Of a DNA stretch of 64,000 nt, positions 18,701-59,867 are shown in pieces. Positions within the stretch are counted from its first letter, which is position 1, and each line of letters starts with the position of its first letter. The stretch lies in assembly GCF_032854445.1 (NCBI RefSeq), contig NC_088295.1, positions 622,501 to 686,500 on the forward strand. Direction: 5' to 3'. The stretch comes from Liolophura sinensis (lineage: Eukaryota > Mollusca > Polyplacophora > Chitonida > Chitonidae). Position numbers and translations under genes: made by a program. The notes beneath the pieces were generated by a model. That model was not told where the DNA came from. It ran no database searches and saw only the letters and a program-made list of their open reading frames with translations.

Positions 18701-21700
18701 TACTCGGCCTGTTTTATAGCATAACCTCGGCCACCATGATGTTACTGAAATTCGGGAGCACGAAGTAAAACATACATGTCAACTAAACATATAACATGAA
18801 TTTAAAGAAGTTTGCAATAAAAGTTTCATTGTAGGAAATTATATATGAAGAGCAAATCATATTGCATTTGCACAATTTTAACAGACATACAGGGAAAGAA
18901 TCCTTCTTGGAAGTAGCTTTACGTTTTAGCGGCCTTTTATTACTGGCATAAATAGTAAAGAGTGGTGCTAAGTAGGTCTTGGTTTACTAATCATCTCGAC
19001 CTCGTCGAACTGGAGATGCTTACGCGTTGGTAGCTTAGCGCCGGCAGTGTTCTCCTACAATTATCACAGATTTGTAACTTTCTTTCTCAATTGTCTATCA
19101 TCCATTTCTGTCAGCTACGCAGTGGCCAACCGGAACTGATAGATGAGGAGAAGGTCGACAGGCGAGCGTTGCGATTGGCCACACGCTCTGGTAACTTCCG
19201 GTTTGATAGAGAGGTCACAAAGCGTTTCAGCCTCCCACCTGGCGTTTATGTCATCATCCCAAGTACATTCCACCCTAATAAAGAAGCCAAATTTATGTTG
19301 AGGTTGTTTACCGAGAAAAAGGCCTCGTCAGGGTGAGATTCCACTTATACCGCGTTCACACGCCCAAAATTTAAACCGGTTTATATTGAAGCCAGTCAAA
19401 CCGGTTTTAAGCCAGTTCAGGGATTTGCCCGTTTACACGACCACATCTAAGCCCGTTTAGTAATTACGACGTCATCATGACCCCCACGTATTCGGGGCGT
19501 TTAATCACACGACACGGATAACTGGCTCAAGACCTGAATCTGGCTTAAAGCCACGTCGCAAGAAGGGGCAATAAACCGAATTAAATGCTTCTGCTTTGCG
19601 TTCTCAAGAACGGCGTCAAATTGATTCTAAGCTTAACTTTGCCCGTTCGAATGGGGTAAAACTCTCTGGTATGCTTTGAATTAAGCAAAAAAGATCTTTT
19701 TCTTTACCTTATTCATCTGTGTGTTTGTTTTCAGACTCATCGATATTCTCACGGGTCCAGAGGAGGTAAAAGTCTTAGTCCGTCTGTAGGCGGCACAACT
19801 CTCACAAGGGACAACTTGTAACTGTTAATTGTAAAATGTAAAAGTATGAAAATCGAATACTGTTCATTTGTGGGTGCAATATATTGCAAAAGTGTAAGAA
19901 ACACTTGTTACATATATACATTCGAGCTTGCGGGGTTTTTCCCTGATTGCTGTGGTGTTAATTCAACATTTTGCAAGCGAAATACACATTTGCCCACCTT
20001 TCGCAGATTATAAAACCGCCCTTAGATCTAGTGCAGGAAATGTTCCACAAACACGCAGGGCATGACGGGAGGATGGATGCCGAAGAACTGCGACATCTCC
20101 TTAACGAGGCTTTGGATACAAGTAAGTCTGCCTTTTTCTACACGGATACACTCCAGAACTTACGACAAATACATTTATTTATTTATTTATTTGGTTGTTG
20201 CTTAAATTCACACTGCAGTATGCCGGTTTGATGGGTCAACAATCTAAAGTATAAACTCCTTACCCATGAACATGTCTCGTCATGATATGGCTGGAACATT
20301 GTCCACGTGACGTTAAGACATGATCACTAAACCCAGTTGGATTATCACCGCTCTAAACATGATTAAATTAATGGTACTCTTACATTACACTTTCCCATTG
20401 CAATTCCTTCATAAAGAGCTATATGCGCACCGCCAGATTTCACCCAATGTAATATGGTATTCTATTTACAGATGGCCGCAAGCTGACTTTCAGCCTGGAA
20501 GCTTGTCGATGTGTTATGATCATGATGGACGTATCTTTTTAACAATGCTAATAATTAATGTGTCTGTAAAGTTGGCAAATTCCCAGCTTACTGTTAAAGT
20601 TCATCGTGTATACTCCACTGGTTAAAATCGTTAGCCAGTTGAGTACCAGTTTTGTAATACAGTTACATTGTATCACATTCTCCGATAAACCAGTATATTG
20701 CTGTGAAAGAAATAAACTATTTATCCATGGAAAGTGCATTGAACTTTAGAGGATAGCTGGATGGTTAGATCTTGCGTAGATTTATACTGGACACGACGTG
20801 ATTTTGTACCATTTGTGGAGAAAGGTGAACGGCACCGGAGAAAGATTAAGGCGTCATACAACATGAATATTTCATAATATCAAGCTGCCTTTCCTTAGCA
20901 TTGTTGTTAGCGAGACAAGACGGGTTTTCTGGGACTCACTGAAGTACGAGAGATGATGAAACAGTTGAAAACGTATCGGGTATGTACCCTTATGTTTGGT
21001 TTTATGAATTGTGAAAGATTTGAACCACACAAACATCATGTTCCCATTCGCAGAAGACTTATGATCAAAATTTATTTACACAGGAAGTCTTCCAGAGATT
21101 TGATCGAGACCGCTCGGGCAAAGTCGACTCGTTTGAACTGACAGCCATGTTCCAGACTATGGGTAGGTCCCGATACATAGAATGGCTTAGGATCTTCCGG
21201 TCTATGGGTAGGTCATACCAGACTCATTTTACATACAACGGCTTACGATTTCGCGGACTATGGGTAGGTCATGCTAAGCTCACTATACATACAACGGCTT
21301 ATGATCTTGCGGACTGTGGGTAGGCCGCCAAGCTGACTATACATAGAATGGCTTAGGATCTTCAGGACTATGGGTAGGTCATGCCAAGCTCACTATACAC
21401 ACAACGGCTTAGGATGTTGCGGACTATGGGTAGGTCATGCCAAGCTCACTATACATAGAATGGATTAGAATCTTCAGGACTATGGGTAGGTCATGCTAAG
21501 CTCACTATACATACAACGGCTTAGGATCTTGCGGACTACAACGGCATAGGACCTGGCGGACTTTGGGTAGGTCATGCAAAGCCCACCATACATGCAATGG
21601 CTTAGGATCTTCCGGACTACGGGTAGGTCATATCAAGCTCAGTATACATAGGATGGCTTAGGATCTGGCGGACTATGAGTAGGTCATGCAAAGCTCATCA

Positions 21701-24700
21701 TACATGTAATGGCTTAGGATGTTGCGGACTATGAGTAGGTCGTGTCAAGTTCACCATACATAGAATGGCTTAGGATCCTGCTGACTAGATAGGTCATGCT
21801 TAGCTGACCAATCTCAGTGGTTTAGAATCTGGCGAACTATGAGTAGTCCAAACTCACTATACTTACAATGGCTTAGGATCCTCTGGACTATGGGTAGGTC
21901 ATACCAAATTCACCATACATAGAATGGTGTGTCGAGGAATGTCACTGTTGTATTAAGGTATGTGACACTGTTGTGACTTACGTATCACTGTTGTAGAGTG
22001 GTATGTGTCACGTTTGTGTTGACCTACGTATCACTGTTGTAGTGAGGTATGTGTCACAGTTGTGTTGACTTACGCATCACTGTTGTAGTGAGATATATGA
22101 CACGTTCATGTTGACTTACGTATCACTGTTGTAGTGATGTATGTGTCACGTTTGTGTTGAGATACGTGACACTGTTGTGTTGACGTATGTGGCATTGGTG
22201 TGGTGAGATATGTATCACGTTTACGTTGAAGTACGTGTCACGGTTGTGTTGAGATATTTGTCACTTTTGTGTTGAGGTATGTGACACTGTTGTGCTGAGA
22301 TATGTGTCACTTTTTTGTTGAGTTACGTGTCACGGTTGTGTTGAGATACGTGTCACTTTTGGGTTGAGGTATGTGGTACTTTTTTGTTGAGATATGTTTG
22401 ACGTCTGTGGTGACGTGTGCGTCATGTTTATATTTCTGTTCTAGGTTTCCCTGTAAGCCGTATAGTGCTTACTTCCATCGTGCGAAGATACGGCGGAAGG
22501 CACAACAAGATTACAGAAGAGGATTTCATCATGGTCATGTGCAAATTGACCACAATGTACCGTAAGTACCGGCAGTTAAATAACCAACAATAATTTATAT
22601 CTTACTTATTTGTTTATGTATTTGTTTGATCGTTGCTTATCTCCACACTCATGAATGTTCCACTTTGTCAGTGGTGGTCAATTTTATGGGTGACGAAAAA
22701 CCAAACTGCATGAAATAAATCACCGACGTATTACTGACAAACTTTCTCACACGTGACATACAGATATACGCAACATATCAATTGAGAGAAGACATGTGGT
22801 CATTAAAGAAGGCAATTAAAGCATCTAAATAAGTAAGCACTATCTACAATAAGAAGCTGAATGTAAGTACCCTAAATGGCAGCTAATTAGCAGCCAAATG
22901 GGCACTTTGAACAGAAACTAGGTAACTGACTACCAATTACTGTAGATACCGACAGCTACATGTCCACAGTGCACGGTAACTAGCTAGATGGCCAACTATT
23001 TACCACAACTAAAGACAGCTACATGTCCAGCATGTACGGTAACTAGCTAGATGGCCAACTATTTACCACAACTAAAGACAGCTACATGTCCGGCATGTAC
23101 GGTAACTAGCTAGATGGCCAACTATTTACCACAACTAAAGACAGCTACATGTCCGGCATGTACGGTAACTAGCTAGATGGTCAACTATTTACCACAACTA
23201 CTGACAGCTACATGTCCAGCATGCACGGTAACTAGCTAGATGGCCAACTATTTACCACAACTACTGACAGCTACACGTTCAGCATGTACGGTAACTAACT
23301 AGACGGCCAACTATTTACCACAACTACTGACAGCTACATGTCCAGCATGTACGGTAACTGGCTAGATGGCCAACTATTTACCACAACTACTGACAGCTAC
23401 ATGTCCAGCATGCACGGTAACTGGCTAGATGGCCAACTATTTACCACAACAACTGACAGCTACATGTCCAGCATGCACGGTAACTGGCTACCACAACTAC
23501 TGACAGCTACACGTTCAGCATGTACGGTAACTAACTAGATGGCCAACTATTTACCACAACTACTGACAGCTACATGTCCGGCATGTACGGTAACTGGTTA
23601 GATGGCCAACTATTTACCACAACTACTGACAGCATGTACGGTAACTAGCTAGATGGCCAACTATTTGCCACAACTACCTGCACTTAAATGTCCTTTGCGC
23701 CCGATGAGTAGGTAGATGGGCAACCATTTATCGTAAATACTGACAGCTACATGTCCAGCATGTACTGTAACTGGCTAGATGGCCAACCATTTACCACAAG
23801 GACTGAACGCTAAATGTCCACCATTTAGGTAATTAGGTAGTTACTGTAACTAAGTAGATAGCCATCATTTGGCGTATTTAGATGTTAGGGATCAGCCACT
23901 ATTTACCACGCCCTCAGATCTGCACACGTTTGGTGCTGGCACAACTAATTGTCTTCACGTCACTTGTGAGGGGGTTCCACTCCCCTCGGGCTGGCCTTAT
24001 GTTAATTAAACCCTGGGCCAGTGGACTGTGGTCACGAAGTACCATACCATAACACTGTCATAATATATGGTTTCACTGCCTGAATCACAAATCTTATTAT
24101 TTTTATTTTGCAGAAACGGCCCCTGTAGACAGAGGTGACTGGTTCCACCAATAACCCAATGTTAACTGGTCCATTAAAATACTATGTGTTCTGTTTTCAG
24201 ACATCTATGTCGATCATGGGCGAAAAGCTGGTGTGTCTAATGGCGCTACTCCCTTTACCTTGGACGAGGTATGTACCATAGTAACTGTTTAATGTATATA
24301 TCAATGATGGGGGAGGACTGGTGTGTCTAATGGCACGTACCCCCTATATCTTGGACGAGGTATGTACCATAGTAACTGTTTAATGTATATATCAATGATG
24401 GGGGAGGACTGGTGTGTCTAATGGCACGTACCACCTATATCTTGGACGAGGTATGTACCATAGTAACTGTTTAATGTATATATCAATGATGGGGGAGGAC
24501 TGGTGTGTCTAATGGCACGTACCCCCTATATCAATGATGAGAGTATATATCAATGATGAGAAAGGACTGATGGATCTTTTGGTATATAAGGTATATACCA
24601 ATAATGGAAGAGGATTGGTGTATATAAGGTATATACCAACAAGGGAAGAGGATTTGTGTATCTCATGGCGCCAGTGCCTGTAACTTCGACGAGGTGTGTA

Positions 24701-27700
24701 GCATGGTGACTGTACAAGGTATATACTAATAATGGAAGAGGATTGGTGTATCTCATGGCGCCACTTTCTTTAACTTCGACGAGGTATGTAGCATGGTGAC
24801 TGTATAAGGTATATACCAATAATGGAAGAGGATTGGTGTATCTGATGTCGCTACTGCCTGTAACTTCGACGAGATATATAGCATGCTGACTGTATTAGGT
24901 ATATACCAACAATGGAAAAGGATTGGTGTATCTCATGGCGCCAGTGCCTGTAACTTCGACGAGGTATGTAGCTTGGTCACTGTGTAAGGTATATAACAAT
25001 AATGGAAGAGGATTGGTGTATCTCATGACGCCAGTGCCTTTAACTTCGACGAGGTGTGTAGCATGGTGACTGTACAAGGTATATACTAATAATGGAAGAG
25101 GATTGGTGTATCTCATGGCGCCACTTTCTTTAACTTCGACGAGGTATGTAGCATGGTGACTGTATAAGGTATATACCAATAATGGAAGAGGACTGGTGGA
25201 TCTCATGGCGCTACTGCCTGTAACTTCGACGAGGTGTGTAGCATGGTGACTGTACAAGGTATATACCAATAATGGAAGAGGATTGGTGTATCTGATGTCG
25301 CCACTGCCTTTAACTTCGACGAGGTATGTAGCATGGTGACTGTATAAGGTATATACCAATAATGGAAGAGGATTGGTGTATCTGATGTCGCCACTGCCAT
25401 TAACTTCGACGAGGTATGTAGCTTGGTCACTATATAAGGTATATATCAATGATGGGAGAAAATTGGTGTGTCTAATCGGGCCAATTTTTTTTACCTTAGG
25501 CGAGGTATGTTCATTGGGGCCTGTGTAGAGTATTTATCAATGATGGAAGAGGATTTGTGTGTCTAATGGGGCCACTCCCTTTTTGTCTGGACAAGCTTTA
25601 CATTTTGGTGACTGTATAAGGTGTCTATCAATAATGAGAAAGGATTGGTGTGTCTATTGGCGCCACTCCCTTTTCTGTGGACGAGGTGTGTACCATGGTG
25701 ACTGTACAGAGTATATATTAATGATGAAAATGACAAAAAAACTAGTGTGTAATGGCGCCTCTCTCTTTTCTTTAAACGAGGTATGTACCATGGTGAGTGT
25801 GTAAAGTGTCTATTAATGATTGGGGAGGACTGGTGTGTCTGATGGCGCCACTGCCTTTAACTTCGACGAGGTGTGTACAATGGTGACTGTATAGGGTATA
25901 CATAAATGATGGGAGAGGATTTGTGGGCCTAATGGCGCCACTCCCTTTACCTTGGACGAGGCATGTACCATGGTGCCTGTATAGGGTATACATCAATGAT
26001 GGGAGAGGATTCGTGTGCCTAATGGCGCCACTCCCTTTACCTTGGACGAGGTATGTGCCATGGTGCCTGTATAGGGTATGTACCAATGATAGGAGAGGAT
26101 TCGTGTGTCTAGTGGCGCCACTCCCTTTACCTTGGACGAGGTATGTACCATGGTGCCTGTAATGGGTATACATCAATGAAGGGAGAGGATTTGTGTGCCT
26201 AATGGCGCCACTCCCTTTACCTTGGACGAGGTATGTGCCATGGTGCCTGTATAGGGTATGTACCAATGATGGGAGAGGATTCGTGTGTCTAATGGCGCCA
26301 CTCCCTTTACCTTGGACGAGGTATGTACCATGGTGCCTGTATAGGGTATACATCAATTATGGGAGAGGATTCGTGTGTCTAGTGGCGCCACTCCCTTTAC
26401 CTTGGACGAGGTATGTACCATGGTGCCTGTAATGGGTAAACATCAATGAAGGGAGAGGATTTGTGTGCCTAATGGCGCCACTCCCTTTACCTTGGACGAG
26501 GTATGTACCATGGTGCCTGTATAGGGTATACATCAATGATAGGAGACGATCTGTGTGCCTAATGGCGCCACTCCCTTTACCTTGGACGAGGTATGTACCA
26601 TGGTGCCTGTATAGGGTATACATCAATGATAGGAGACGATCTGTGTGCCTAATGGCGCCACTCCCTTTACCCTGGACTAGGTATGTACCATTGTGCCTGT
26701 ATAGGGTATACATAAATGATGGGAGAGAATTTGTGTGTCTAATGGCGCCACTCCCTTTACCTTGGACGAGGTATGTACCATGGTGCCTGTATAGGGTATA
26801 CATCAACGATGGGAGAAGATTTGTGTGTCTAATGGACCATCTGGACCACTCTAATGGCGCTACTATTTTTTCTATGAAAGAGGTATATACCATGATGACT
26901 GCATAGGGTATATATAAATGATGGTAGAGGATTGGTGTGTTTAATTGCTCCAGTTCCTTTATTTTGGACGAGGTATGTGCAGTTGTCACTGTATAGAGTA
27001 TACACCAAATGATGGTAGAGGACTGATGGTTCTAATGGCCTCACTCCATATACCTAGGAAGAGGTATATACGACGGTAACTGTATAAGGTAGATATCATT
27101 GATGGGAGAGGATCTGTGTGTCTTATGGCGCCACTCCCTTTTCTGTGAATGAGGTATGTTCATTTGGGACTGTCTAGAGTATTTATCAATGATGTGACAG
27201 GATTGGTGTGTCTAATGGCGCGTCTCCTTTTACCTTGGATGAGGTAAGTAGCAGAGTGACTGTTTAATGTTTTATTCAATGATGGGACATGACTGGTGTA
27301 TCTCATCGAGCCACTCCCTTTTTTCTGGACAAGGTATGTAGCATGATGACTGTATAGGGTATCTATCAATGATTGGAGCGTGTCAAATGGTGCCACTCCC
27401 TTTCTTCGCAGGAGGTGTGTACCATGATGACTGTATTGGGTATCTATCAATGATTGGAGCGTGTCAAATGGTGCCACTCCCTTTCTTCGCAGGAGGTGTG
27501 TACCATGATGACTGTATAGGGTATTTATCAATGATGGCAGAGGATTTGTGTGTCTAATGACGCCATTCCCTTTCCTATGGACGAGGTATGGTCATTGGGG
27601 CTTGTTTAGGGTATATATGCATGATGACAGAGGATTTGTGTGTCTAATGGCGCCATTGCCTTTATCTTGGGCGAGGTATGTGCATTGGTGACTGCATAAG

Positions 27701-28575
27701 GTGTATAGCAATGATGTTTGAGGATTCGTGTATATAATGGCACCATTCCCTATTCTATGGACGACGTATGTACCATGGTAACTGTATAGGGTATATATCA
27801 ATGATGGAAGAGAACTAGTGTGTTCGAATGGCCCGTCTCCCTTTTCTATGGACGAGGGATATACCATGATGACTGTATAGGGTATACATCAATGATGGGA
27901 GAGGAATGGTGTGTCTAATGGCGCCACTCCCTTTACCTTGCACGAGGTATGTACCATGGTGACTGTATATGTTAGATATCAATCGTGGGAGAGGTGCGTC
28001 TAATGGCGCCACATAACCATATCAACGTTCAGATATTATTTTCGACAACTTGTATGCTAGCATGGAACGCGGTTTGAATACCGATTTTATTAATTCACCT
28101 ACAACATACTTTTAGATCTTTGGTAGTTTGTGTTAAACGCCGTTTTTCGAATTTGCCTGGTGATTTTGGACCTGGAACGTCCATATTGGTTGATGGCTTG
28201 TATACGAACGTCGAATTCGACGCATAAATTCATGTTAATCTACGTTAGTTAGTGTTTTGTTCTAACTGCTTTTTTTAATTGTTAAAAATTAGCAAACGTA
28301 TACGTCCCTTGTCACCATGACTTATGTAGAATTAGTTCAAATATGCAGTAATGCTAACAGAATAATTAATTAATCTATTAAACTGTTAGAGTGCTGTGTT
28401 GAACCTTCCACATATAGATGCCTATTTCGTATCATTCTGTTAGTTATGGAATTAAGGATCTTACTAGGTACGGGTGCACTTGATACGATTTAGTGATGCT
28501 GCTCAGTTTGTAAAGATTTAAATATGTACATTTTGGTTATTACTTCAGTGGTTGCAGAACACCATGTTCTGTTGA
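2530..28575 (+). CDS. calpain gene A, complete, 20 coding exons
   Basis: Encodes a classical calpain, a cytosolic Ca2+-activated cysteine protease that makes limited cuts in its substrates. Coding exons: 2530-2675, 4019-4088, 7551-7655, 9442-9595, 9707-9884, 10418-10507, 11918-12003, 12867-12944, 13495-13588, 13829-13916, 18024-18172, 19115-19332, 19735-19765, 20007-20121, 20472-20530, 20911-20979, 21084-21162, 22445-22561, 24201-24268, 28549-28575. The product is about 673 residues with this order: short N-terminal anchor, protease core (Cys about 75 in GNCWF, His about 239 in MGHAYS, Asn about 263 in RNPWG; the His-Asn spacing of 24 equals that of vertebrate calpain-1), C2-like domain, and PEF domain ending WLQNTMFC. 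All junctions are GT-AG and in phase. The only defect is one missing base in exon 1. Subtype within the classical calpains is not assigned. Confidence 0.93.
2703..2745. repeat. (GT)n followed by 18-G run
   Basis: A GT microsatellite leads into an uninterrupted run of G at 2728-2745, 27 bp after the donor of calpain A exon 1. A G run of this length can form intermolecular quadruplexes and is a common site of length error. Confidence 0.9.
2746..3589. other. intron A1, unique part
   Basis: Intronic sequence with no recognised element except a small run of CACCTGTCATCCGGGCA-type repeats at about 3440-3545. No coding exon was seen. Confidence 0.5.
3590..3735 (+). mobile_element. SINE-1 3' end with AAAT and AT tail
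   Basis: Only the 3' end of the SINE-1 family is present (AAGTGAAATATTCTTAAGTA, then CACCAGTCAAATAAATAAA), followed by an (AAAT)n/(AT)n tail to 3735. The tRNA-related head is missing, so this is a 5'-truncated copy inside intron A1. Confidence 0.85.
4019..4088 (+). CDS. calpain A exon 2
   Basis: Acceptor CTTTGCAG, donor GTGAGT. Encodes [17 protein letters not shown] and ends just before the catalytic Cys block, the standard calpain motif preceding GDCW. It starts in phase 0 and ends with one base of the next codon. Confidence 0.95.
4089..4890. other. intron A2, first part, nothing recognised
   Basis: AT-rich intronic DNA. No exon, SINE or tandem array could be supported here. Confidence 0.5.
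4896..5155 (+). mobile_element. SINE-1, full length, tRNA-derived
   Basis: The head resembles a tRNA with an A box (GTGGCTCAGTTGTTAGC) and a B box (GTTCAAGTCC). It is followed by a conserved body (CTGCGGATG, CCGGGCTCTGGCGGG, ATAATGCTGGCC) and the tail AAGTGAAATATTCTTGAATA, ending in ATAAATAAATAAA. The structure is typical of tRNA-derived SINEs in molluscs. The copy is diverged and is not a functional tRNA gene. Confidence 0.88.
5322..5482 (+). mobile_element. SINE-2 fragment (3' half)
   Basis: Carries the SINE-2 body (GTCTCAGTGAAGTACCACTA, GGAAATCCGTCCTGCAAC) and tail (TTCCTTCGTCGTCATATGAC, AGTACGACGTTAAAC, then CACTCACTC). The tRNA-like head is missing. Confidence 0.85.
5580..5843 (+). mobile_element. 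SINE-1, full length, with target-site duplication
   Basis: A full copy: A box GTGGCTCAGTCGGTTAGC, B box GTTCAAGACC, body GGTCTGCCAGCAACCTGCGG and tail ending CACCAATC plus poly-A. The 11-base direct repeat AGAATTCAGAC flanks it at 5569-5579 and 5844-5854, the mark of LINE-dependent retrotransposition. This copy is better preserved than the one at 4896. Confidence 0.95.
5991..6554. other. intron A2, unique part
   Basis: AT-rich non-repetitive intron. No coding signal was recognised on either strand. Confidence 0.45.
6555..7085. repeat. 33-bp degenerate minisatellite
   Basis: About 16 copies of a 33-bp unit with the core GTTGTATATTGGGTATCCCC followed by CGAACCGT. Because the period is 11 codons, both strands carry apparent 11-residue repeat proteins (up to 192 codons on the minus strand). 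There is no start context, flanking exon or non-repeat domain to support translation, and the array lies wholly inside intron A2. Confidence 0.9.
7551..7655 (+). CDS. calpain A exon 3 (catalytic cysteine)
   Basis: Acceptor TTCTTCAG, donor GTGAGA. Encodes [17 protein letters not shown] and then FFRVVPQDQ, ending DYAG. The Cys codon at 7556 is the active-site nucleophile. It enters and leaves in phase 1. Confidence 0.96.
7822..8121. repeat. 31-bp minisatellite, about 9 copies
   Basis: Near-identical units of TATAAATAAAGGTTAATCTT plus ACCTGTATGCT in intron A3. Low divergence between units suggests recent expansion. Confidence 0.92.
8238..9290. repeat. ~16-bp degenerate repeat, about 65 copies
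   Basis: Long degenerate array of CACATTAGCCTCATTA-type units filling the rest of intron A3. The units differ at several positions, so this array is older than the 31-bp one next to it. Confidence 0.9.
9442..9595 (+). CDS. calpain A exon 4
   Basis: Acceptor CATTTTCAG, donor GTAAGT. Encodes [13 protein letters not shown], the VIVDDFLP motif and [13 protein letters not shown], all hallmarks of the calpain protease core. It starts in phase 1 and ends in phase 2. Confidence 0.96.
9707..9884 (+). CDS. calpain A exon 5
   Basis: Acceptor TGATCTACAG, donor GTGAGT. Encodes [22 protein letters not shown] and [10 protein letters not shown]. This is the region linking the two halves of the protease core. 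It ends in phase 0. Confidence 0.96.
10418..10507 (+). CDS. calpain A exon 6 (catalytic histidine)
   Basis: Acceptor TTCTGTCAG, donor GTAAGA. Encodes [18 protein letters not shown]. The His codon at 10478 in GHAYS is the active-site base. It is in phase 0 at both ends. Confidence 0.96.
10528..11036. repeat. ~41-bp degenerate minisatellite in intron A6
   Basis: About 12 units with the core GTACGGAACACGTCTACATG followed by TGGTCCCAATATAATGACT. Some units (for example near 10978) read TATGGGACATGTCTACA, very like TATGGGACATGCCTACA of the preceding exon, so the array may derive partly from exon 6. Confidence 0.88.
11037..11555. other. intron A6, unique part
   Basis: Non-repetitive intronic DNA with no recognised exon or element. 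Confidence 0.4.
11556..11905. repeat. ~63-bp degenerate repeat, 5 copies
   Basis: Units share TTCTCGTGGGTGAGGAGGGA and TTTGGTCTGTTGTCGAC. The array runs almost to the acceptor of exon 7 at 11917. Confidence 0.85.
11918..12003 (+). CDS. calpain A exon 7 (catalytic asparagine)
   Basis: Acceptor GTGTTGTAG; the donor is the weak GTTAAA. Encodes [20 protein letters not shown] and then EWNGPWSDR. The Asn codon at 11960 completes the triad. It ends in phase 2. The donor departs from GTAAGT at several positions. Confidence 0.95.
12215..12860. repeat. ~31-bp degenerate minisatellite, about 20 copies
   Basis: Units of the type CTGTTGTTAATACTGTCTTT plus AACTGTTACCCC fill intron A7 up to the polypyrimidine tract of exon 8. 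Unit length varies by one or two bases. Confidence 0.9.
12867..12944 (+). CDS. calpain A exon 8
   Basis: Acceptor TTATCCAG, donor GTGAGT. Encodes [14 protein letters not shown] and DDGEFW, the conserved end of the protease core. Phase 2 at both ends. Confidence 0.95.
12966..13232. repeat. ~52-bp minisatellite, 5 copies
   Basis: Units share CCATGACACTGTCGTCTCTA and TAAAGTATGTTTATTGACTT, starting soon after the donor of exon 8. Copies are nearly identical. Confidence 0.9.
13495..13588 (+). CDS. calpain A exon 9
   Basis: Acceptor TGTTACAG, donor GTAAGG. Encodes [19 protein letters not shown] and ends with QEVAIDM, at the start of the C2-like beta-sandwich domain. It ends in phase 0. Confidence 0.95.
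13829..13916 (+). CDS. calpain A exon 10
   Basis: Acceptor GTTTTCAG, donor GTAAGG. Encodes [14 protein letters not shown] and the [10 protein letters not shown] block typical of calpain domain III. It ends in phase 1. Confidence 0.95.
13950..14250. repeat. AT-rich simple repeat (TTTA)n
   Basis: Imperfect ATTTATTTAATTATTTG runs in intron A10. Confidence 0.85.
14518..17565. repeat. 44-bp dimeric minisatellite, about 68 copies
   Basis: The unit consists of two related 22-bp halves, CCACCGTTGTACATGCCCG(ATT) and CCATTGTGGTACCTGCC(TACTA). At about 16340-16500 and 16975-17160 the array drops to 22-bp monomers of the type CCAATACCGTTGTGGTACC. These two stretches lie in a duplicated block of roughly 220 bp about 640 bp apart. 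ORFs of up to 403 codons arise because the unit lacks stops. Confidence 0.95.
17566..18000. repeat. decayed edge of the 22/44-bp array
   Basis: Diverged CTAATACCATTGTATTACCTG-like units continue from the main array to within about 20 bp of exon 11. Older units at the edge and fresher ones inside are usual for arrays that turn over from the middle. Confidence 0.8.
18024..18172 (+). CDS. calpain A exon 11
   Basis: Acceptor ACTACAG, donor GTATGT. Encodes [29 protein letters not shown] and IAIGYDVYR, the acidic loop and strands of the C2-like domain. It ends in phase 0. Confidence 0.95.
18212..18326 (-). mobile_element. SINE-1 fragment, minus strand
   Basis: Reverse complement of the SINE-1 3' half: TTATTTATTTGATTGGTGTT at the left, then GGCGGCCAGCATTATGG and GGCAGAGCCCGTGGGAAACC. 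The tRNA-like head is absent. It lies in intron A11. Confidence 0.85.
18370..18525. repeat. imperfect direct duplication
   Basis: Two related blocks, each with GACAGTGTGA(T/A)AGCT followed by ACACGTA and AAATGCGGCT or AAATACGGCT, lie in tandem. Origin unknown. Confidence 0.6.
19115..19332 (+). CDS. calpain A exon 12
   Basis: Acceptor TTTCTGTCAG, donor GTGAGA. Encodes the rest of the C2-like domain, with [19 protein letters not shown] and [11 protein letters not shown], closely matching the PPGEYILVPSTFEPN block of vertebrate calpains. It ends in phase 2. Confidence 0.96.
19333..19734. other. intron A12, possible old transposon remnant
   Basis: Contains TACCGCGTTCACACG, several AAACCGGTTT-like blocks and a second TTTACACGACC segment. 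GCGTTCACACG motifs are often seen in short nonautonomous DNA transposons, but no inverted terminal repeat was found here. Confidence 0.3.
19735..19765 (+). CDS. calpain A exon 13 (linker)
   Basis: A 31-bp exon: acceptor TTGTTTTCAG, donor GTAAAA. Encodes [11 protein letters not shown], the linker between the C2-like and PEF domains. Read-through into the intron meets a stop at 19787 after seven further codons, which would give a PEF-less product. The PEF exons that follow make splicing the main outcome. Confidence 0.85.
20007..20121 (+). CDS. calpain A exon 14 (PEF, EF-hand 1)
   Basis: Acceptor TTTCGCAG, donor GTAAGT. Encodes [20 protein letters not shown] and then [13 protein letters not shown], the first EF-hand of a penta-EF-hand domain. 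It ends in phase 1. Confidence 0.93.
20472..20530 (+). CDS. calpain A exon 15 (PEF)
   Basis: Acceptor TATTTACAG, donor GTATCT. Encodes [20 protein letters not shown], matching the FSLEACR-MI-LMD helix before EF-hand 2. It ends in phase 0 inside the Ca2+ loop. Confidence 0.93.
20911..20979 (+). CDS. calpain A exon 16 (PEF, EF-hand 2)
   Basis: Acceptor TTGTTGTTAG, donor GTATGT. With the previous Asp it forms the loop [12 protein letters not shown], then [12 protein letters not shown]. The ligand positions are suitable for Ca2+. Confidence 0.93.
21084..21162 (+). CDS. calpain A exon 17 (PEF, EF-hand 3)
   Basis: Acceptor TTTACACAG, donor GTAGGT. Encodes [19 protein letters not shown], a canonical Ca2+ loop, and ends AMFQTMG in phase 1. 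Its last bases and donor (GACTATGGGTAGGTC) are repeated many times in the following intron. Confidence 0.94.
21163..21930. repeat. ~57-bp minisatellite containing the exon 17 end and donor
   Basis: About 13 units, each with GGACTATGGGTAGGTCATGC followed by AAGCTCACTATACAT and GGCTTAGGATCTTGC. The 15-base GACTATGGGTAGGTC at the true exon 17/intron junction recurs in many units with its GT, so the array seems to have grown from the splice junction. Each such copy is a possible decoy 5' splice site. Confidence 0.92.
21932..22440. repeat. ~22-bp degenerate minisatellite
   Basis: Units of GTGTTGAGGTATGTGTCACT type run to the acceptor of exon 18. Many units contain GGTATGTG, which also resembles a 5' splice site. 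Confidence 0.88.
22445..22561 (+). CDS. calpain A exon 18 (PEF, EF-hand 4)
   Basis: Acceptor TGTTCTAG, donor GTAAGT. Encodes [18 protein letters not shown] and [14 protein letters not shown], the degenerate fourth EF-hand. It ends in phase 1. Confidence 0.93.
22955..23880. repeat. 63-bp minisatellite, about 14 copies
   Basis: Units contain GACAGCTACATGTCCAGCAT, ACGGTAACTAGCTAGATGG and CCAACTATTTACCACAACTA. The ATGTACGGTAACT part resembles ATGTACCGTAAGT at the end of exon 18 (11 of 13), a weak hint of the same junction-derived origin. Confidence 0.9.
24114..24154 (+). other. possible alternative terminal exon of calpain A
   Basis: A strong acceptor (pyrimidine-rich, TATTTTGCAG) is followed, in the phase left by exon 18, by 13 complete codons (ACG to [14 protein letters not shown] at the end) and TAA at 24152. 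It would replace EF-hand 5 with a short tail. There is no homology support; it may be a chance acceptor. Confidence 0.3.
24201..24268 (+). CDS. calpain A exon 19 (PEF, EF-hand 5)
   Basis: Acceptor TGTTTTCAG, donor GTATGT. Encodes [20 protein letters not shown] and then LDE, the start of EF-hand 5, and ends in phase 0. The last ~36 bases plus the donor are the founder of the 90-bp array in the next intron. Confidence 0.92.
24269..28015. repeat. 90-bp array built from the exon 19 end and its donor, about 42 copies
   Basis: Each unit carries GTGTCTAATGGCGCCACTCC, CTTTACCTTGGACGAG and GTATGTACCATGGTG, the end of exon 19 ([12 protein letters not shown]) with its 5' splice site. A spacer of about 40 bp (GTATAGGGTATACATCAATG, ATGGGAGAGGATT) follows. 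The central 25900-26830 part is most uniform. Near 24580-25460 the exon-like part has drifted to CTTTAACTTCGACGAG. The period is divisible by three, so long ORFs appear on both strands; they are not genes. Confidence 0.96.
28016..28548. other. end of intron A19
   Basis: Unique AT-rich intron sequence between the array and the last exon. No element recognised. Confidence 0.5.
28549..28575 (+). CDS. calpain A exon 20 (stop)
   Basis: Acceptor TTATTACTTCAG. Encodes WLQNTMFC and TGA. The W-L-Q-x-T-M ending is the usual end of PEF calpains (WLQLTMYS-like), so this short exon is well supported despite its size. Confidence 0.93.
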   Translation, partial: WLQNTMFC

Positions 28576-45800: not shown

Positions 45801-48800
45801 GTGTTTGCTTATCCACCATTCCCCAAGACATTTGTGAGACTACTGTGTTTGCCTTATCCACCATTCCCCAAGACGTTTGTGAGACGACATGGTTTGCCTT
45901 ATCCACCATTGCAATAGACGATGCGAGACTACTGTGTTTGCTTATCCACCATTCCCATAAGCGTTTCTGAGACAACAGGATTTCCCTTATCCACCATTCC
46001 CATAGGCGTTTGTGAGACGACAGGGTTTACCTTATCCACCATTCCCCAAGACATTTGTGAGACGACAGGGTTTGCCTTATCCACCATTGCAATAGACGAT
46101 GCGAGACTACTGTGTTTGCTTATCCACCATTCCCGTAGATGTTTGTGAGACGACAGGTGTTTACCTTATCCACAATTCCCATAGGCGTTTCTGAGACAAC
46201 AGGATTTCCCTTATCCACCATTCCCATAGGCGTTTGTGAGACGACAGGGTTGGCCTTATCTACCATTCCCATTGGCGTTTGCAAGACTATTATGTTTGCT
46301 TTATCCACGATTCCCATAGGTGTTTGTGAGACGACAGGGTTTACTTTATCCAACATTACCCAAGACGTTTGTGAGACGACAGGATTTGCCTTGTCCACCA
46401 TTGCAATAGACGATGCGAGATTACTCTGTTTGCTTATCCACCATTCCCATAGATGTTTGTGAGACGACAGGTGTTTACCTTATTCACCATTCCCATAGCC
46501 GTTTCTGAGACAACAGGGTTTGCCTTATTCACCATTCCCATAGGCGTTTGCGAGGACTACTGTGTTTGCTTTTCCACCATTCCCATAAGCGATACGAGAC
46601 GACTGGGTTTACTTTATCCACCATTCCCATTGGTATTTGTGTAACTACTGTTTGCTTTATCCACCATTTCCCTGGGCGTTTGTGACACTAATGTGTTTGC
46701 CTTATCCGCCCTCCCCATAGACGAAACTACTGGGTTTGTCTTTTCTACCATTCCCACAGCCGATGCAAGACTACTGTGTTTGCCTTATTTACTATTCCCC
46801 TACGCGATGCAGGACTACTTTATTTGCCTTATCCACCATTACCAAAGGCGTTTGTGAAACTACTGTGTTTGCTTTATCCACCATTTCCCATGGCCATTGT
46901 AAGACTACTGTGTTTGCTTTATCCACCATTTTTATAGGCGAGACGAGGCTACTGTGTTTGCTTATCCACCATTCCCATAGGCGTTTGTGAGACAACAGGG
47001 TTTGCCTTATCCACCATTCCCATTGGCGTTTGTGAGACGACAGGGATTGCCTTATCCACCATTCCCATTGGCGTTTGTGAGACGACAGGGCTTGCCTTAT
47101 CCACCATTCCCATTGGCGTTTGCAAGACTATTATGTTTGTTATATCCACCATTCCCATAGGTGTTTGTGAGACGACAAGGTTTAGCTTATCCACCATTCC
47201 CTAAGACTTTTGTGAGACAACAGGATTTGCCTTATCCACCATTTCCATAGATGTTTGTGAGACTGCTGGGTTTGCCTTATCCACCATTCCGTTAGCCCAT
47301 GCGAAACTACCTTGTTTGCATTATCCACCATTCCCATAATCGTTTGTCGAACTTCTGTGTTTTGTTTTCCACAGTACAGGTGCCTCTGAGATTAATGTGT
47401 CTTGCTCCTCAGTAATCAAAATCAAAATTTTTTCACGTTAAGGGTTCAATTCTGTTTTATTTTTGTTTCTGTTCAGGATGGCATACGACGATTTCATTAA
47501 AGAGTTCGATGAACTTTCAGATGTGTCATATGGTGCCAGATGCTTTTACTGCAGAACTCAACGCTAATATGGTATGTTTGTCAGGTGTATAAGACAACAC
47601 TGTACGGTTACTCATAATACAGATTCCTAGTATCTCCTAAGTCCATACACATACTGTAGTAGGGATGGTTTCTAAGTTAACATTATAATGGACATAAATC
47701 TGTAGATCATGGCTCTCAATCAGTCAAACATCCATCCGTGACAATGGTTTGCACTCTATCGACACACCTAGCTATGTGAGATGGTTCGCTCTTTATCCAT
47801 ACACTTAGCTATGTGCAATGGTCTGCTCTCCACCCATACATCTGCCTGGGGCAATGGTTTGCTCTCCACCCATACATCTGCCTGGGGCAATGGTTTGCTC
47901 TCCATCCATACATCTGCCTGGGGCAATGGTTTGCTCTCCATCCATACATCTGCCCGGAGCAATGGTTTGCTCTCCACGCATACATCTGCCTGGGGCAATT
48001 GTTTGCTCTCCACCCATACATCTGCCTGGGGCAATTGTTTGCTCTCCACCCATACATCTGCCTGGGACAATGGTTTGCTCTCTATCCATACATCTGCCTG
48101 GGACAATTGTTTGCTCTCCACCCATACATCTGCCTGGGGCAATTGTTTGCTCTCCACCCATACATCTGCCTGGGGCAATGGTTTGCTCTCCACCCATACA
48201 TCTGCCTGGGGCAATGGTTTGCTCTCCACCCATACATCTGCCTGGGGCAGTGGTTTGCTCTCCACCCATACATCTGCCTGGGGCAATGGTTTGCTCTCCA
48301 TGCATACATCTGCCTGAGGCAATGGTTTGCTCTCCACCCATACATCTGCCTGGGGCAATTGTTTGCTCTCCACCCATACATCTGCCTAGGGCAATGGTTT
48401 GCTCTCCACCCATATATCTGCCTGGGGCAATTGTTTGCTCTCCATCCATACATCTAGCTAGATGCAATGCTTTCCTCCCTATCCACACATCCAGCTAGGT
48501 TTAATGATTTGCTCTCCATCTATACATCTACCTAGGTGCAATTTTTTGCTCTCTATCCATGCCAGTAGCTAGGTGCAATGGTTTGCTCTCCACGTATACA
48601 TTGGCTAGGTGAAATGGTTTGCTCTCTACCCATGCATCTAGCTAGGTGCAATGATCCCCCCTCAATCCACACATCTAGCTAAGTGCAAAGGTTTGCTCTT
48701 TATCCATACCTTTAGCTAGGTGCAATGCTTTCCTATCAATCCGCACATCGAATTAGGTGCAATGGTTTGCTCTCTATCCATACTTTTAGCCAGGTGCCAT

Positions 48801-57800: not shown

Positions 57801-59867
57801 GATACCCCACTGACAATAACTGACAATCACCCTGAGGCACCGACTGTTGTACGATGTGTTCTACAGGTAAACCTTGATACCCCATTGGCAATCATTGACA
57901 GTAACACCAATGCACCGCCTTCTGTACAATGTGTTCTACAGGTAAACCTTTATACCCCATTGACAATAACGGACAATCACCCTAAGACACCGCCTTCTGT
58001 ACAATGTGTTCTACAGGTAAACCTTTATAGCCCATTGATAATAACTGACAATCACCCTGAGACACCGACTGTTGTACGATGTGTTCTACAGGTAAACCTT
58101 TATACCCTTTGACAATAACTGACAATCAAACTTTGGCACCGTCTGTTGTACGATGTGTTCTACAGGTAAACCTTGATACCCCATTGACAATCACCAACGC
58201 TCACACTAAGCCACTGCGTGTTGTACAATGTCTTCTGCGAGTAAACACCACTGACAATCACACTAACACACCGTCGGTTGTACGACCTCCTCGACGGTTA
58301 TTTACTTGTACAATTAGCAATATGTTTTGTACAAATCCAATTTTTTCTGCAAGCATTCACTAAGGACAATTATCAGTATGTTTTATAGATGTCCAATTTC
58401 TTCCTGCAGGCATTCACTGGGATAATCAGCAGTATTACATCGGATTGAAAGACCCTGATAGTACTGGAAAGTGCACCCTGATTGTCTCACTTATGGAAAA
58501 GGAGGTTAGGACCTCGTCTTTGCAAGAACCGGAGGTGCTCATCGGATTCTCAGTATTCAGGGTAAGCTAAAACATGCAGTTGTTCTAACTTACACAATGC
58601 ATAATAATAAAGGCTTCAGTGCCTAAGTTAATGCAAACTATTTTTCGAGTTATTTTAACCATGTTTTTTCTTATTTCTTTTTTCCATAGTTAAATGAACC
58701 GTCATTGAATCCTTTGAACCGCAAAAACAAGAGCCGAGCTGATATCGTGGCCACAGCGGGAGAGTACGAGATTTATCGCGAGATTTGTAAACGCTTTGAG
58801 CTATCGCCTGGCATATATGTAGTTATACCTCAGACCTACCGTTCAGGTGACGAAGCGGACTATTTTATCAGGCTTTACTCCAAACGGATGACGACTGCAG
58901 GGTAAGGACAAAGCGGGAAATGTTGGAGCTATTATTATGAGTTATTAGGTAATGGCATTGAACACAATCTCGACCTGCGAACGCCAACGTAAGTTACCAT
59001 AATGTAACGTAAGTTACTATAATGTAACGTAAGTTATCATAATGTAACGTGAGTCATCATAATGTAACGTGAGTCATCATAATGTAACGTGAGTCATCAT
59101 AATGTAACGTAAGTTATCGTAATGTAATGTGAGTCATCATAATGTAACGTGATTCATCTTAATACTCCGAATCATACTGTTTTACATCGACCAAACGTTT
59201 CTTACATCGACCAAACGTTTCTTACACCGATTAAACTTTTCTTACACTGACATTTCTTATACAGATGAAACGTTTCTTACACAAATGAAACGTTTTTTAC
59301 ACAAATGAAACGTTTCTTACACAGATGAAACGTTTCTCCCCCACACCAACCCTTTCTCACACAGACCAAACCTTTGATGTAAAGAACGCTGTAACCTGGA
59401 TTGATGTGAAGGATCTGTAAACATTCTTTATACAATGGCGATTAGCTTCTGACTCTGATTAGGCTCCTCATTATACTCGGCATTTCTCTTCTGAAACAAT
59501 GGGAAAAGATCAACTGGATAACTTATTAACTAAAGAAGAAGAAAGGTTATAAGCAAGACATGAAAAAGGCTATAACCTTGATGTGAAATGGCTTATCAAG
59601 CATTTGTGAACTATCACACTCTAGTCACTGGCTTTACCCTCTAAGCTGTTTTATAGTATGAACCAGATATAAACATGGAAATGATTCATAAGCCAGATAT
59701 AAAAACAGCTTATATACCAGATATGAAAAGAAAAAGTTTAAATAGAACCAAAAAGTGTCTGTGTATTGTACCTCACCTCTACCATGTTTACCTGCATTTC
59801 AAAGATATATTTTCCATATTTCTCTTATCATAATGTTTTCAGGGAGATGGGACTTCCAAAAGCCAAC
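33708..59867 (+). CDS. calpain gene B, 13 exons in window, 3' end missing, several indels
   Basis: A paralogue of gene A. Exons: 33708-33859, 35123-35198, 36589-36695, 36949-37103, 38217-38394, 38585-38671, 39424-39508, 40930-41007, 47477-47571, 56307-56388, 58410-58561, 58690-58901, 59843-59867. All 13 junction phases equal those of gene A. The catalytic Cys (36594), His (38642) and Asn (39466) are kept. About 494 codons of the protease core and C2-like domain are in the window; no PEF exon was found before 64000. Single-base indels break exons 1, 3, 4, 7 and 9. Exon lengths differ from gene A by exactly the expected net amounts (+2, +1, -1, +1 in exons 3, 4, 7, 9). Apart from frameshift-induced stops there are no nonsense codons and no lost splice sites, which argues for sequence error over decay. 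Confidence 0.88.
33860..35122. repeat. intron B1 with ~31-bp degenerate repeat
   Basis: About 15 units of CCTTGGTACGCCCTGAATAG plus CTAGAATCAAA lie at 34122-34565. The rest is unique, with a CTCTCTCCCTCC-type pyrimidine run near 34730 and an ATTT run near 35050. Confidence 0.85.
35123..35198 (+). CDS. calpain B exon 2
   Basis: Acceptor ACTATTTCAG, donor GTGAGA. Encodes DIFPQLAPKFLIDGYSRSDL and then IQGAIG, equivalent to gene A exon 2 (PKFIVG, SRFD). It ends in phase 1. Intact. Confidence 0.94.
35255..36330. repeat. 30-bp minisatellite, about 35 copies
   Basis: Units of ATATCAGTGGGTAAATAACC plus TTACGACGGT, moderately diverged, fill intron B2. Confidence 0.92.
36589..36695 (+). CDS. calpain B exon 3 (catalytic cysteine, two +1 indels)
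   Basis: Acceptor GTTTCACAG, donor GTGAGA. Encodes GNCWFVAAAATLVTINR, then after a shift QFNRVVPLDQSF, then after a second shift RQGYAG. It is 107 bp against 105 in gene A, so two extra bases explain both shifts: one G in ACGGCAG and one T in CGTTTTCG. The Cys codon is at 36594. Confidence 0.9.
36949..37103 (+). CDS. calpain B exon 4 (net +1 indel)
   Basis: Acceptor TTTATTTCAG, donor GTAAGA. Encodes GIFHFHFWWYG; an extra G in TATGGGCGAC shifts the frame; then GDWVEICIDDYLPCDDHG and LLEKAYAK. Before LLEK it reads HESGPC where EFW is almost invariant. A missing T (GAA-T-CTGG) and an extra T (GTGTTTG) would restore E-F-W-P-V. It is 155 bp against 154 in gene A. Confidence 0.9.
37507..37845. repeat. 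(TCTG)n compound repeat
   Basis: Blocks of TCTGTCTGTCTG are joined by GTACAAGGCGGAA or GTACAACGTGGAA in intron B4. They give long ORFs in several frames without coding meaning. Confidence 0.92.
38217..38394 (+). CDS. calpain B exon 5
   Basis: Acceptor AAACTTGTAG, donor GTGAGT. Encodes LHGSYEALEGGK, IDFTGGMTEVFSL and MNTLMGAAIF. It has exactly the 178 bp of gene A exon 5 and is intact. Confidence 0.96.
38585..38671 (+). CDS. calpain B exon 6 (catalytic histidine)
   Basis: Acceptor CTATTTCAG, donor GTAAGC. Encodes [19 protein letters not shown]. The His codon is at 38642. It is one codon shorter than gene A exon 6 and in frame. Confidence 0.96.
38890..39370. repeat. two degenerate repeats in intron B6
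   Basis: A ~22-bp unit (GGGCATACTGTAAATTGT) at 38890-39080 is followed by a ~42-bp unit (TCAGTTATATGATCAGTTTG, TCTGGTATATGACAA) at 39081-39370. Confidence 0.8.
39424..39508 (+). CDS. calpain B exon 7 (catalytic asparagine, -1 indel)
   Basis: Acceptor TTCTCTGTCAG, donor GTACGT. Encodes [18 protein letters not shown], then shifts frame and continues EWNGAWSDR. It is 85 bp against 86 in gene A; one lost base in the GGGGAGGGGC stretch (39475-39481) explains the shift. The Asn codon is at 39466. A second AG at 39428-39429 is a possible alternative acceptor, but equal exon length favours 39424. Confidence 0.9.
39510..40590. repeat. ~60-76-bp pyrimidine-rich minisatellite
   Basis: Units contain TCTTACCTGTCTCTTCTATT, CACTTTGTTACATTCACCTC and TAACACACCCAGTCTAACAG. 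The array begins right after the donor of exon 7, and each unit's CTTACCTGTCTCTTCT stretch is polypyrimidine-rich. Confidence 0.9.
40585..40905. repeat. ~85-bp repeat, 3-4 copies
   Basis: Units share TTTCCCTCCAGATCTCTCCC, GCACACCCACGTGTACCCCA and GTTTGAGTGCTGATTGTAC. Confidence 0.82.
40930..41007 (+). CDS. calpain B exon 8
   Basis: Acceptor TTTCCCACAG, donor GTAAGC. Encodes RSPEIVRMSPRDKQRLNLVS and then INDGEFW. It has 78 bp, as in gene A exon 8, and is intact. Confidence 0.95.
41040..47370. repeat. 45-bp minisatellite, about 140 copies
   Basis: A 6.3-kb array of a 45-bp unit (TTTGCCTTATCCACCATTCC, CATAGGCGTTTGTGAGACTA, CTGTG) fills intron B8. Larger blocks are duplicated: for example, the segment around 41330-41440 (CAGAAGCGATTGTAACACTA) recurs near 42300-42400, and 42960-43060 recurs about 135 bp later. 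The period is 15 codons, so both strands show 15-residue repeats (minus strand MVDKANPVVSQTPMG), but frames break often by indels. Confidence 0.96.
47477..47571 (+). CDS. calpain B exon 9 (+1 indel)
   Basis: Acceptor TTCTGTTCAG, donor GTATGT. Encodes WMAYDDFIKEFDELS, then a shift, then MCHMVPDAFTAELNANM, aligned with gene A exon 9. It is 95 bp against 94; one extra base near 47520 accounts for it. Confidence 0.9.
47780..48470. repeat. 36-bp minisatellite, about 19 copies
   Basis: Very uniform units of CTCTCCACCCATACATCTGC plus CTGGGGCAATGGTTTG. Period 36 gives ORFs above 200 codons on both strands. It merges into the related 37-bp array on its right. Confidence 0.95.
48471..53514. repeat. 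37-bp minisatellite with ~1.2-kb higher-order repeats
   Basis: About 135 copies of GCTCTCCATCCACACATCGA plus ACTAGGTGCAATGGTTT. Blocks of 33 units (1221 bp) and 28 units (1036 bp) are repeated almost without change: a marker at 49601 recurs at 50822 and 51858, and one at 50230 recurs at 51266. A T-run difference (TTTT near 49098, TTT in the next copy) shifts the offset from 1222 to 1221. Confidence 0.95.
53515..54080. other. non-repeat island inside the 37-bp array
   Basis: About 560 bp of unique sequence, with AAGTCCTGG repeated at its left and TCAGGCTAGGTC/CACGGCTAGGTC at its right, interrupts the array. It may be an inserted mobile element of unknown class, or a remnant of the intron before the array expanded. 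No ORF of note and no clear terminal repeats. Confidence 0.45.
54081..56220. repeat. 37-bp array, diverged right part
   Basis: Same unit family (CTCCATCCATACATCTAGCT, AGGTGCAATGGTTTGCT) but older and more variable, with a subset reading GCTCAAAATCCACACATCCA. Interrupted by a SINE-2 at 55404-55721. Confidence 0.88.
55404..55721 (+). mobile_element. SINE-2, full length, tRNA-derived
   Basis: tRNA-like head (ATAGCACAGATGGTAGAGCG, then GGTAGATTCAGAATCAATCC), body (AACTTCCTCGCTTGGCGTTC, GGAAAATCCGTCCTGCGGC) and tail (TTCCTTCGTCGTCATATGAC, AGTACGATGTTAAACCCC, CACTCGCACT). Flanked on both sides by the 37-bp minisatellite, so it inserted into the array. Confidence 0.92.
56307..56388 (+). CDS. calpain B exon 10
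   Basis: Acceptor TTTCCTCAG, donor GTAGAC. Encodes DKEEWDVAMFHGSWMHEDTA and then CCTMCST. It is in frame but two codons shorter than gene A exon 10, and lacks the RGVTAGGC motif (HEDTACC instead), so this strand of the domain III sandwich has diverged. Its last bases and donor seed the 75-bp array that follows. Confidence 0.88.
56389..58235. repeat. 75-bp array built from the exon 10 end and its donor, about 25 copies
   Basis: Each unit has GTACGATGTGTTCTACAG|GTAAACC then ATACCCCATTGACAATAACT and GACAATCACCCTAAGACACC. The exon-like part matches the true exon 10 end (GCACGATGTGTTCTACAG|GTAGACC) over about 24 bases. The copies mostly have a better donor (GTAAAC) than the real one (GTAGAC). Long ORFs (up to 260 codons) follow from the period of 25 codons. 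Confidence 0.96.
58410..58561 (+). CDS. calpain B exon 11
   Basis: Acceptor TTCTTCCTGCAG, donor GTAAGC. Encodes HWDNQQYYIGLKDPDSTGK, CTLIVSLMEKEV and VLIGFSVFR, matching gene A exon 11 with a longer insert before the last strand. Intact; ends in phase 0. Confidence 0.95.
58690..58901 (+). CDS. calpain B exon 12
   Basis: Acceptor TTTTTCCATAG, donor GTAAGG. Encodes RFELSPGIYVVIPQTYRSGD and YFIRLYSKRM, the end of the C2-like domain. Intact; ends in phase 2. Confidence 0.95.
58982..59345. repeat. two 20-bp repeats, the first containing a 5' splice-site motif
   Basis: At 58982-59162 the unit is AATGTAACGTAAGTTATCAT (variants AACGTGAGTCATCAT), about 9 copies. At 59175-59345 the unit is ACAGATGAAACGTTTCTTAC. 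The first copy reads GCCAACGTAAGTTACCA, almost the same as the junction of exon 13 (GCCAACGTAAGTTATCA at 59862) 880 bp downstream. Confidence 0.9.
59346..59842. other. intron B12, right part
   Basis: Unique AT-rich sequence without a recognised element. Confidence 0.45.
59843..59867 (+). CDS. calpain B exon 13 (linker)
   Basis: A 25-bp exon: acceptor ATGTTTTCAG, donor GTAAGT. Encodes GEMGLPKAN, equivalent to the 31-bp linker exon 13 of gene A; ends in phase 0. The reading frame stays open past the donor to a stop at about 60068, so an unspliced end is possible. Confidence 0.8.

Follow-up and report, generated by a model that had tools for sequence, protein, structure and literature searches.

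Exon 19 of a calpain gene (calpain A) of the chiton Liolophura sinensis forms one end of a tandem array that fills most of the following intron. The repeat is tandem and of minisatellite size, its unit spans the exon-intron boundary and the array has the real junction at its edge. Tandem repeats that span exon-intron boundaries have been described as 'mirages' in the Adh3 and globin genes of lancelets, at both 5' and 3' boundaries (PMC3087553). The chiton array is very probably a splice-junction minisatellite of this type, in which an exon end and its donor were duplicated in tandem, one founder copy was amplified and the copies are passive. The window referred to below is the whole 64 kb stretch of DNA that was analysed; the calpain exons, introns and junction repeats described in it are all on the + strand.

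The exon 19 array and its origin

The gene can be assigned to the calpains, as an earlier note on this DNA had proposed, because its exon peptides match PDB calpains (best E-value: 6.5e-37). Exon 18 (22445..22561) encodes an EF-hand ending in KLTTMY, which lies within the PDB calpain match; it ends in phase 1 and has the donor GTAAGT. Exon 19 (24201..24268, 68 nt) has the donor GAG|GTATGT. The last coding exon (28549..28575, 27 nt) encodes WLQNTMFC*, which aligns to the calpain C-terminus of the PDB chains. Joined together, exons 18, 19 and 20 form one open frame. Intron 19 (24269..28548) lies between the last two of these exons, and approximately 87% of its length is array.

The whole array is located at 24201-28012 and is built of units of approximately 90 bp. 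Cyclic alignment gives 42 units with exon 19 as the first, in agreement with the earlier estimate of about 42 copies, and thus 41 copies downstream (units 3-43, 24294..27971). A partial last unit (27972..28012) consists of the exon-like part only. TRF reports the array in two rows, 24228-24532 (91 bp x 3.4) and 24623-27994 (90 bp x 37.3). Most downstream copies are 90-91 bp long; units 37-38 are 81 bp, unit 31 has a 22-base insertion and units 5-6 (24476-24628) are rearranged. Exon 19 had been placed at the left edge of the array, and it does lie there in register, as the first full unit, from its nt 3. The unit had been thought to hold the last ~36 bases of exon 19 and the donor. Both are present, but the unit takes in nearly the whole 68-nt exon, followed by ~25 nt of intron.

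The similarity between the units and exon 19 is far above chance. The whole exon compared with intron 19 has a score of 82, while the best of 200 shuffles reaches 38. The last 36 nt of the exon match 28 sites in the array at <=8 mismatches; at this threshold there are no matches outside the array in the window and none on the antisense strand. The copies had also been called dozens of near-perfect exon-end decoys, but only about ten are near-perfect at the exon end (9 at <=2 mismatches, 10 at <=3). The donor GT is retained in 35 of the 41 copies, and 25 of the 42 units, exon 19 among them, have GTATGT as the donor.

Resemblance to exon 19 is unevenly spread over the unit. Identity between exon 19 and the copy consensus is 36/37 in the last 37 columns of the exon, 19/28 in its first 28 columns and 14/19 in intron columns 71-89. 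The first part of the exon is nevertheless related to the units, with 19 of 5000 shuffles reaching its score in an anchored comparison. The stretch before exon 19 is not above chance when compared with the units in the same way (490 of 5000 shuffles) or in another test (135 of 200 shuffles). The founder duplication therefore took the donor and nearly the whole exon, without a recognisable acceptor.

Columns 14-30 of the alignment hold 18 nt in exon 19 and 17 nt in 37 of the 41 copies; the other four copies hold 9, 9, 13 and 22 nt, and no copy holds 18. This pattern points to a single founder copy that had lost one base and speaks against repeated copying of the exon. Neighbouring units are the most alike (identity 0.811 at lag 1, 0.771 at lag 6), as would be expected of local duplication and exchange. 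The last 37 columns of exon 19 match the copies far better than the flanking columns do. Because even divergence from one founder would explain these well-kept columns poorly, gene conversion by exon 19 or constraint that is uneven is suggested.

Copies of nearly a whole exon could instead be relics of tandem exon duplication, some of them still in use as alternative exons, and 10 of the 40 measurable copies are free of stops in the exon frame. The copies do not, however, keep acceptor, frame and donor together, as tandem (mutually exclusive) exon duplication requires. Acceptor homology is at the level of chance, the one-base deletion is present in 37 of the 41 copies and a mere ~25 bp separates successive exon-like copies. 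An AG is found near the unit end in 34 copies, but the sequence ahead of it is poor in pyrimidines (mean fraction 0.50, maximum 0.59), compared with a mean of 0.69 for 16 real acceptors. The earlier statement that the copies lack a strong acceptor holds as a matter of degree, since 4 of these 16 real acceptors are not above the best copy. Relics of exon duplication are thus a very improbable source of the array.

The direction of the change can be judged from two calpain paralogues on the same contig, with Calpain_III matches at C1:911,933 (+) and C1:6,831,969 (-). When their translated frames are read by eye, both have an intron at the same position as intron 19, before WMETCLYQ* and WLETTMYQ* (~264 and 253 bp, respectively), and the preceding exon ends resemble that of exon 19 (TLDMSQ|WMETCL and TLDANE|WLETTM). 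TRF finds no array inside either of these equivalent introns. As the paralogues share the intron and are free of the array, the exon end predates the array and the array derives from the exon. It follows from the same comparison that intron 19 was, by all appearances, not newly made inside a former exon.

An array that came first, from which the end of exon 19 was later recruited, would also place the exon in register at the array edge. This order of events is highly implausible in view of the paralogues, with their similar ends and array-free introns (as read by eye). It is also opposed by the alignment of the exon end and C-terminus to PDB calpains and by a kinesin locus described below, where the repeated part is the end of a motor-domain exon. 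Growth from the splice junction by tandem duplication, which the earlier note had considered probable, is upheld by the homology and by the paralogues. The array resembles the Rogers model, in which introns are gained when AG/GT segments are duplicated in tandem (as cited in PMC3087553), in that a segment bearing a splice site is duplicated in this way; it is unlike that model in that the calpain intron is older than the array.

The proposed history of the array begins with a segment of ~90 bp, comprising nearly all of exon 19, the 5' splice site and ~25 nt of intron, which was duplicated in tandem, as homology shows. The founder copy would then have lost one base in its exon-like part and so left the coding frame. 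It would have been amplified and partly homogenised within the intron by slippage or unequal exchange, a step suggested by the deletion that the copies have in common and by a similarity between units that falls off with distance. The calpain array in this way illustrates one route of intron lengthening.

Splice-junction repeats at other exon edges

The same structure is present elsewhere in the window. Sixteen exons of two calpain genes, which have further exons, were bounded by eye, and 31 of their edges were compared with the adjoining intron (300 shuffles each). Three edges, the exon 19 donor included, had scores reached by none of the 300 shuffles. The second is the donor of exon 17 in the same gene. 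Its array (21163..21927) has a 56-bp unit with the exon 17 end and donor (ACTATGG|GTAGGTC; score 38, 0/300 shuffles), and a 17-nt junction probe finds another 11 copies at <=4 mismatches. This array lies in intron 17 and is independent of the exon 19 array. The third is the acceptor, at 58410, of a domain III exon in the second of the two genes, where a repeat at 58310..58435 (56 bp x 2.2) covers TGCAG|GCATTCACT and the start of the exon (score 36, 0/300 shuffles); there is one further copy of the junction probe for this acceptor. A 63-bp array in intron 18 (22947-23840) contains ATGTACGGTAACT, which is like the exon 18 donor ATGTACCGTAAGT. Its resemblance was borderline (19/200 and 9/300 shuffles), and it is not claimed as a further case.

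In the assembly, 66 loci were scanned as well. They represent the best 8 of 18 Calpain_III matches, 30 of 81 myosin matches and 28 of 132 kinesin matches and are not a random sample; some overlap or share one gene, and one, L008, which accounts for 2 of the 132 edges, belongs to the window itself. Edges were set at the limits of the Pfam matches, so that real junctions may fall outside the query, and an edge passed with a score of at least 36 and 0/200 shuffles. Five of the 132 edges in these best-scoring matches pass. L053, a kinesin locus, has an acceptor array upstream of the real exon (L053:773-1529; G000:C8 near 682,000; 64 bp x 11.8) with the junction TTGTACAG|GAAGCCATGTCCATCAACAAG. L066 has an array at the donor (GTAAGA) of a kinesin motor-domain exon ending in KSTLMFGQR (L066:1605-3168; G000:C11 near 27,413,000; 73 bp x 21.6), which reaches the end of the locus. 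The others are the donors of L035 (66 bp x 8.1) and L043 (32 bp x 7.5 and x 10.4) and the acceptor of L041, which has one further copy; L035, L043, L053 and L066 thus have multi-copy arrays. Four of the passing edges have scores of 52-96. L043, at 38, would hardly stand out from the controls if it had no arrays: at the threshold of 36, the controls gave 1/132 antisense (score 36) and 1/132 mid-exon (score 40, L058). The L058 mid-exon match spans stops and so probably takes in an intron.

Splice-junction repeats are accordingly not special to the calpain gene, as they are found at several percent of the examined exon edges in this chiton genome. Tandem repeats cover 54.5% of the window, compared with 15.0% of 58 myosin and kinesin exon-centred loci, so the window is unusually repeat-rich. 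One of its repeats, at 47742-53507, has 156 copies of a 37-bp unit.

Mirages have been noted in lancelets for troponin C and PGBD5 (PMC3902484) in addition to Adh3 and the globin genes BflGb6 and BflGb9 (PMC3087553). All of these are like the calpain array in having tandem units that span a boundary. They also share with the chiton repeats the involvement of both 5' and 3' boundaries, the presence of splice signals in many but not all copies and partial homogenisation (PMC3087553, PMC3902484). The calpain array differs in its 41 copies, against 6 and 3 in two BflGb6 haplotypes, and in a unit that takes in nearly the whole exon. Splicing in lancelets was followed by RT-PCR, which suggested that it is regular despite the mirages (PMC3087553).

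The array also belongs to a mollusc, while the mirages reported so far in the sources cited here are from cephalochordates. Judged by its sequence, the chiton calpain structure fits the description of a mirage, with the animal group as the difference. Splice-junction minisatellites are therefore apparently not peculiar to lancelets. No report from outside lancelets was recognised from the titles and abstract beginnings of literature, few subscription papers among it, on minisatellites, intron gain and mirages. The main text of a comparative paper on chitons (PMC12005716) does not contain 'minisatellite' or 'tandem repeat', and 'tandem' does not occur in that of the chiton genome paper (PMC11068029).

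Internal tandem repeats in human segmental duplications have minisatellite-sized units as well, alter the length of exons and introns and can activate cryptic splice sites (PMC2812944). In these primate paralogues, the repeats lengthen exons or create introns (PMC2812944); in the calpain gene, an existing intron has been filled with copies of an exon end.

There is about an even chance that chitons, independently of lancelets, are prone throughout the genome to the amplification of splice junctions into minisatellites. This would affect a few percent of exon edges and leave many near-identical copies of the donor or acceptor beside the real site in hundreds to thousands of introns. Such a tendency, if real, would provide a large-scale natural test of splice-site choice and a source of intron growth.

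Splice-site choice

The copies in intron 19 would be passive because they have donors and lack a recognisable inherited acceptor, which would make their recognition as exons difficult. The real donor would win as it lies 68 nt from a good acceptor, a reading based on exon definition. It is thus most likely that the true donor is chosen because it alone is paired with an acceptor. With no good acceptor ahead of the copies, their use as exons in their own right is unlikely, and extension of exon 19 is the likelier error.

Any use of a copy donor, or retention of the intron, would reach an in-frame TAA at 24290..24292. The stop would be reached within 24 nt, so that the protein end WLQNTMFC is replaced by VCTIVTV, and this truncated end would be identical for every copy donor. 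With the first copy donor the stop is 67 nt before the new junction, and with the others the distance is greater. This is enough to expect nonsense-mediated decay under the vertebrate rule. As the use of a copy donor leads to an early stop and loss of the conserved C-terminus, full-length calpain probably depends on accurate selection of the first donor.

An alternative is that the donor copies are functional. As a dense set of U1-binding sites, they could shield a long intron from premature polyadenylation or tune the splicing of the C-terminal exon, and use of a copy donor could act as a switch to truncated calpain. The identical end produced by all copy donors would suit such a switch, and retention of GT in most copies would suit either role. 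No 9-column window of the exon 19 unit is better conserved than the donor 9-mer (0.919, rank 1/90), and 23 of the 41 copy donors equal or exceed the real donor when scored with a position matrix. The donor window also ranks first in L035 (1/66). These two top ranks could hint at constraint, which counts against passivity. In the remaining four arrays, however, the donor or acceptor window ranks 49/73, 11/56, 22/64 and 9/32. With rank 1 in only two of the six arrays, no general constraint on splice sites is seen; nor is there any sign in the six arrays that splice sites have been purged from the copies.

A role against early polyadenylation could be read from the lack of AATAAA in intron 19, compared with 56 in the window. 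Only ~3.7 would be expected in this repetitive 4.3 kb, and one ATTAAA is present at 28377, so the absence is too weak to support such a role. Two paralogues manage without the array, and like repeats are found at unrelated genes and at acceptors. Functional donor copies are consequently an unlikely explanation, and passive copies beside a single paired donor are preferred.

An array of near-identical donors, or of acceptors, next to a single real one constitutes a natural experiment on splice-site choice, in which the sequence hardly changes and only position and pairing vary. If a few percent of chiton exon edges carry such arrays, the question of how the site is chosen could be addressed statistically with ordinary RNA-seq.

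The assembly

The chiton genome was published under the name 'Liolophura japonica' (PMC11068029), and the species name was later corrected to L. sinensis (PMC12441733). The 609 Mb assembly contains the exact junction 18-mer ACCTTGGACGAGGTATGT nine times; eight instances are in copies of the exon 19 array and the ninth is the real junction. The confinement of this 18-mer to one contig leaves no second haplotype for comparison, and the assembly coverage is 14x (PMC11068029), both of which would leave room for a false expansion or collapse of the repeat. The units differ from one another, however (mean copy-copy identity 0.75), and the HiFi reads, with a mean of 8.3 kb (PMC11068029), are longer than the 3.8 kb array. 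An artefact of assembly is accordingly only a slight prospect, and the array is taken as a genuine feature of the calpain gene.

Contig G000:C99 (108,685 bp) has seven COX1 matches ~15.5 kb apart and is probably an assembly concatemer of the circular mitochondrial DNA. COX1 is free of stops in tables 5 (the invertebrate mitochondrial code), 9 and 13 alike, so that the code by itself settles nothing about the animal group; an amphioxus as the source, which the likeness to mirages would suggest, is ruled out by the gene order. The genes cox3 and trnE are separated by a simple AT-rich repeat. The gene order, which covers the tRNA genes and the protein genes other than atp8, was assembled by eye in three pieces from translated frames and ARAGORN tRNAs. 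It reads cox1 cox2 D atp6 F nad5 H nad4 nad4L T S cob nad6 P nad1 L L - V - M C Y W Q G E cox3 K A R N I nad3 nad2, which is presumably the ancestral order of molluscs.
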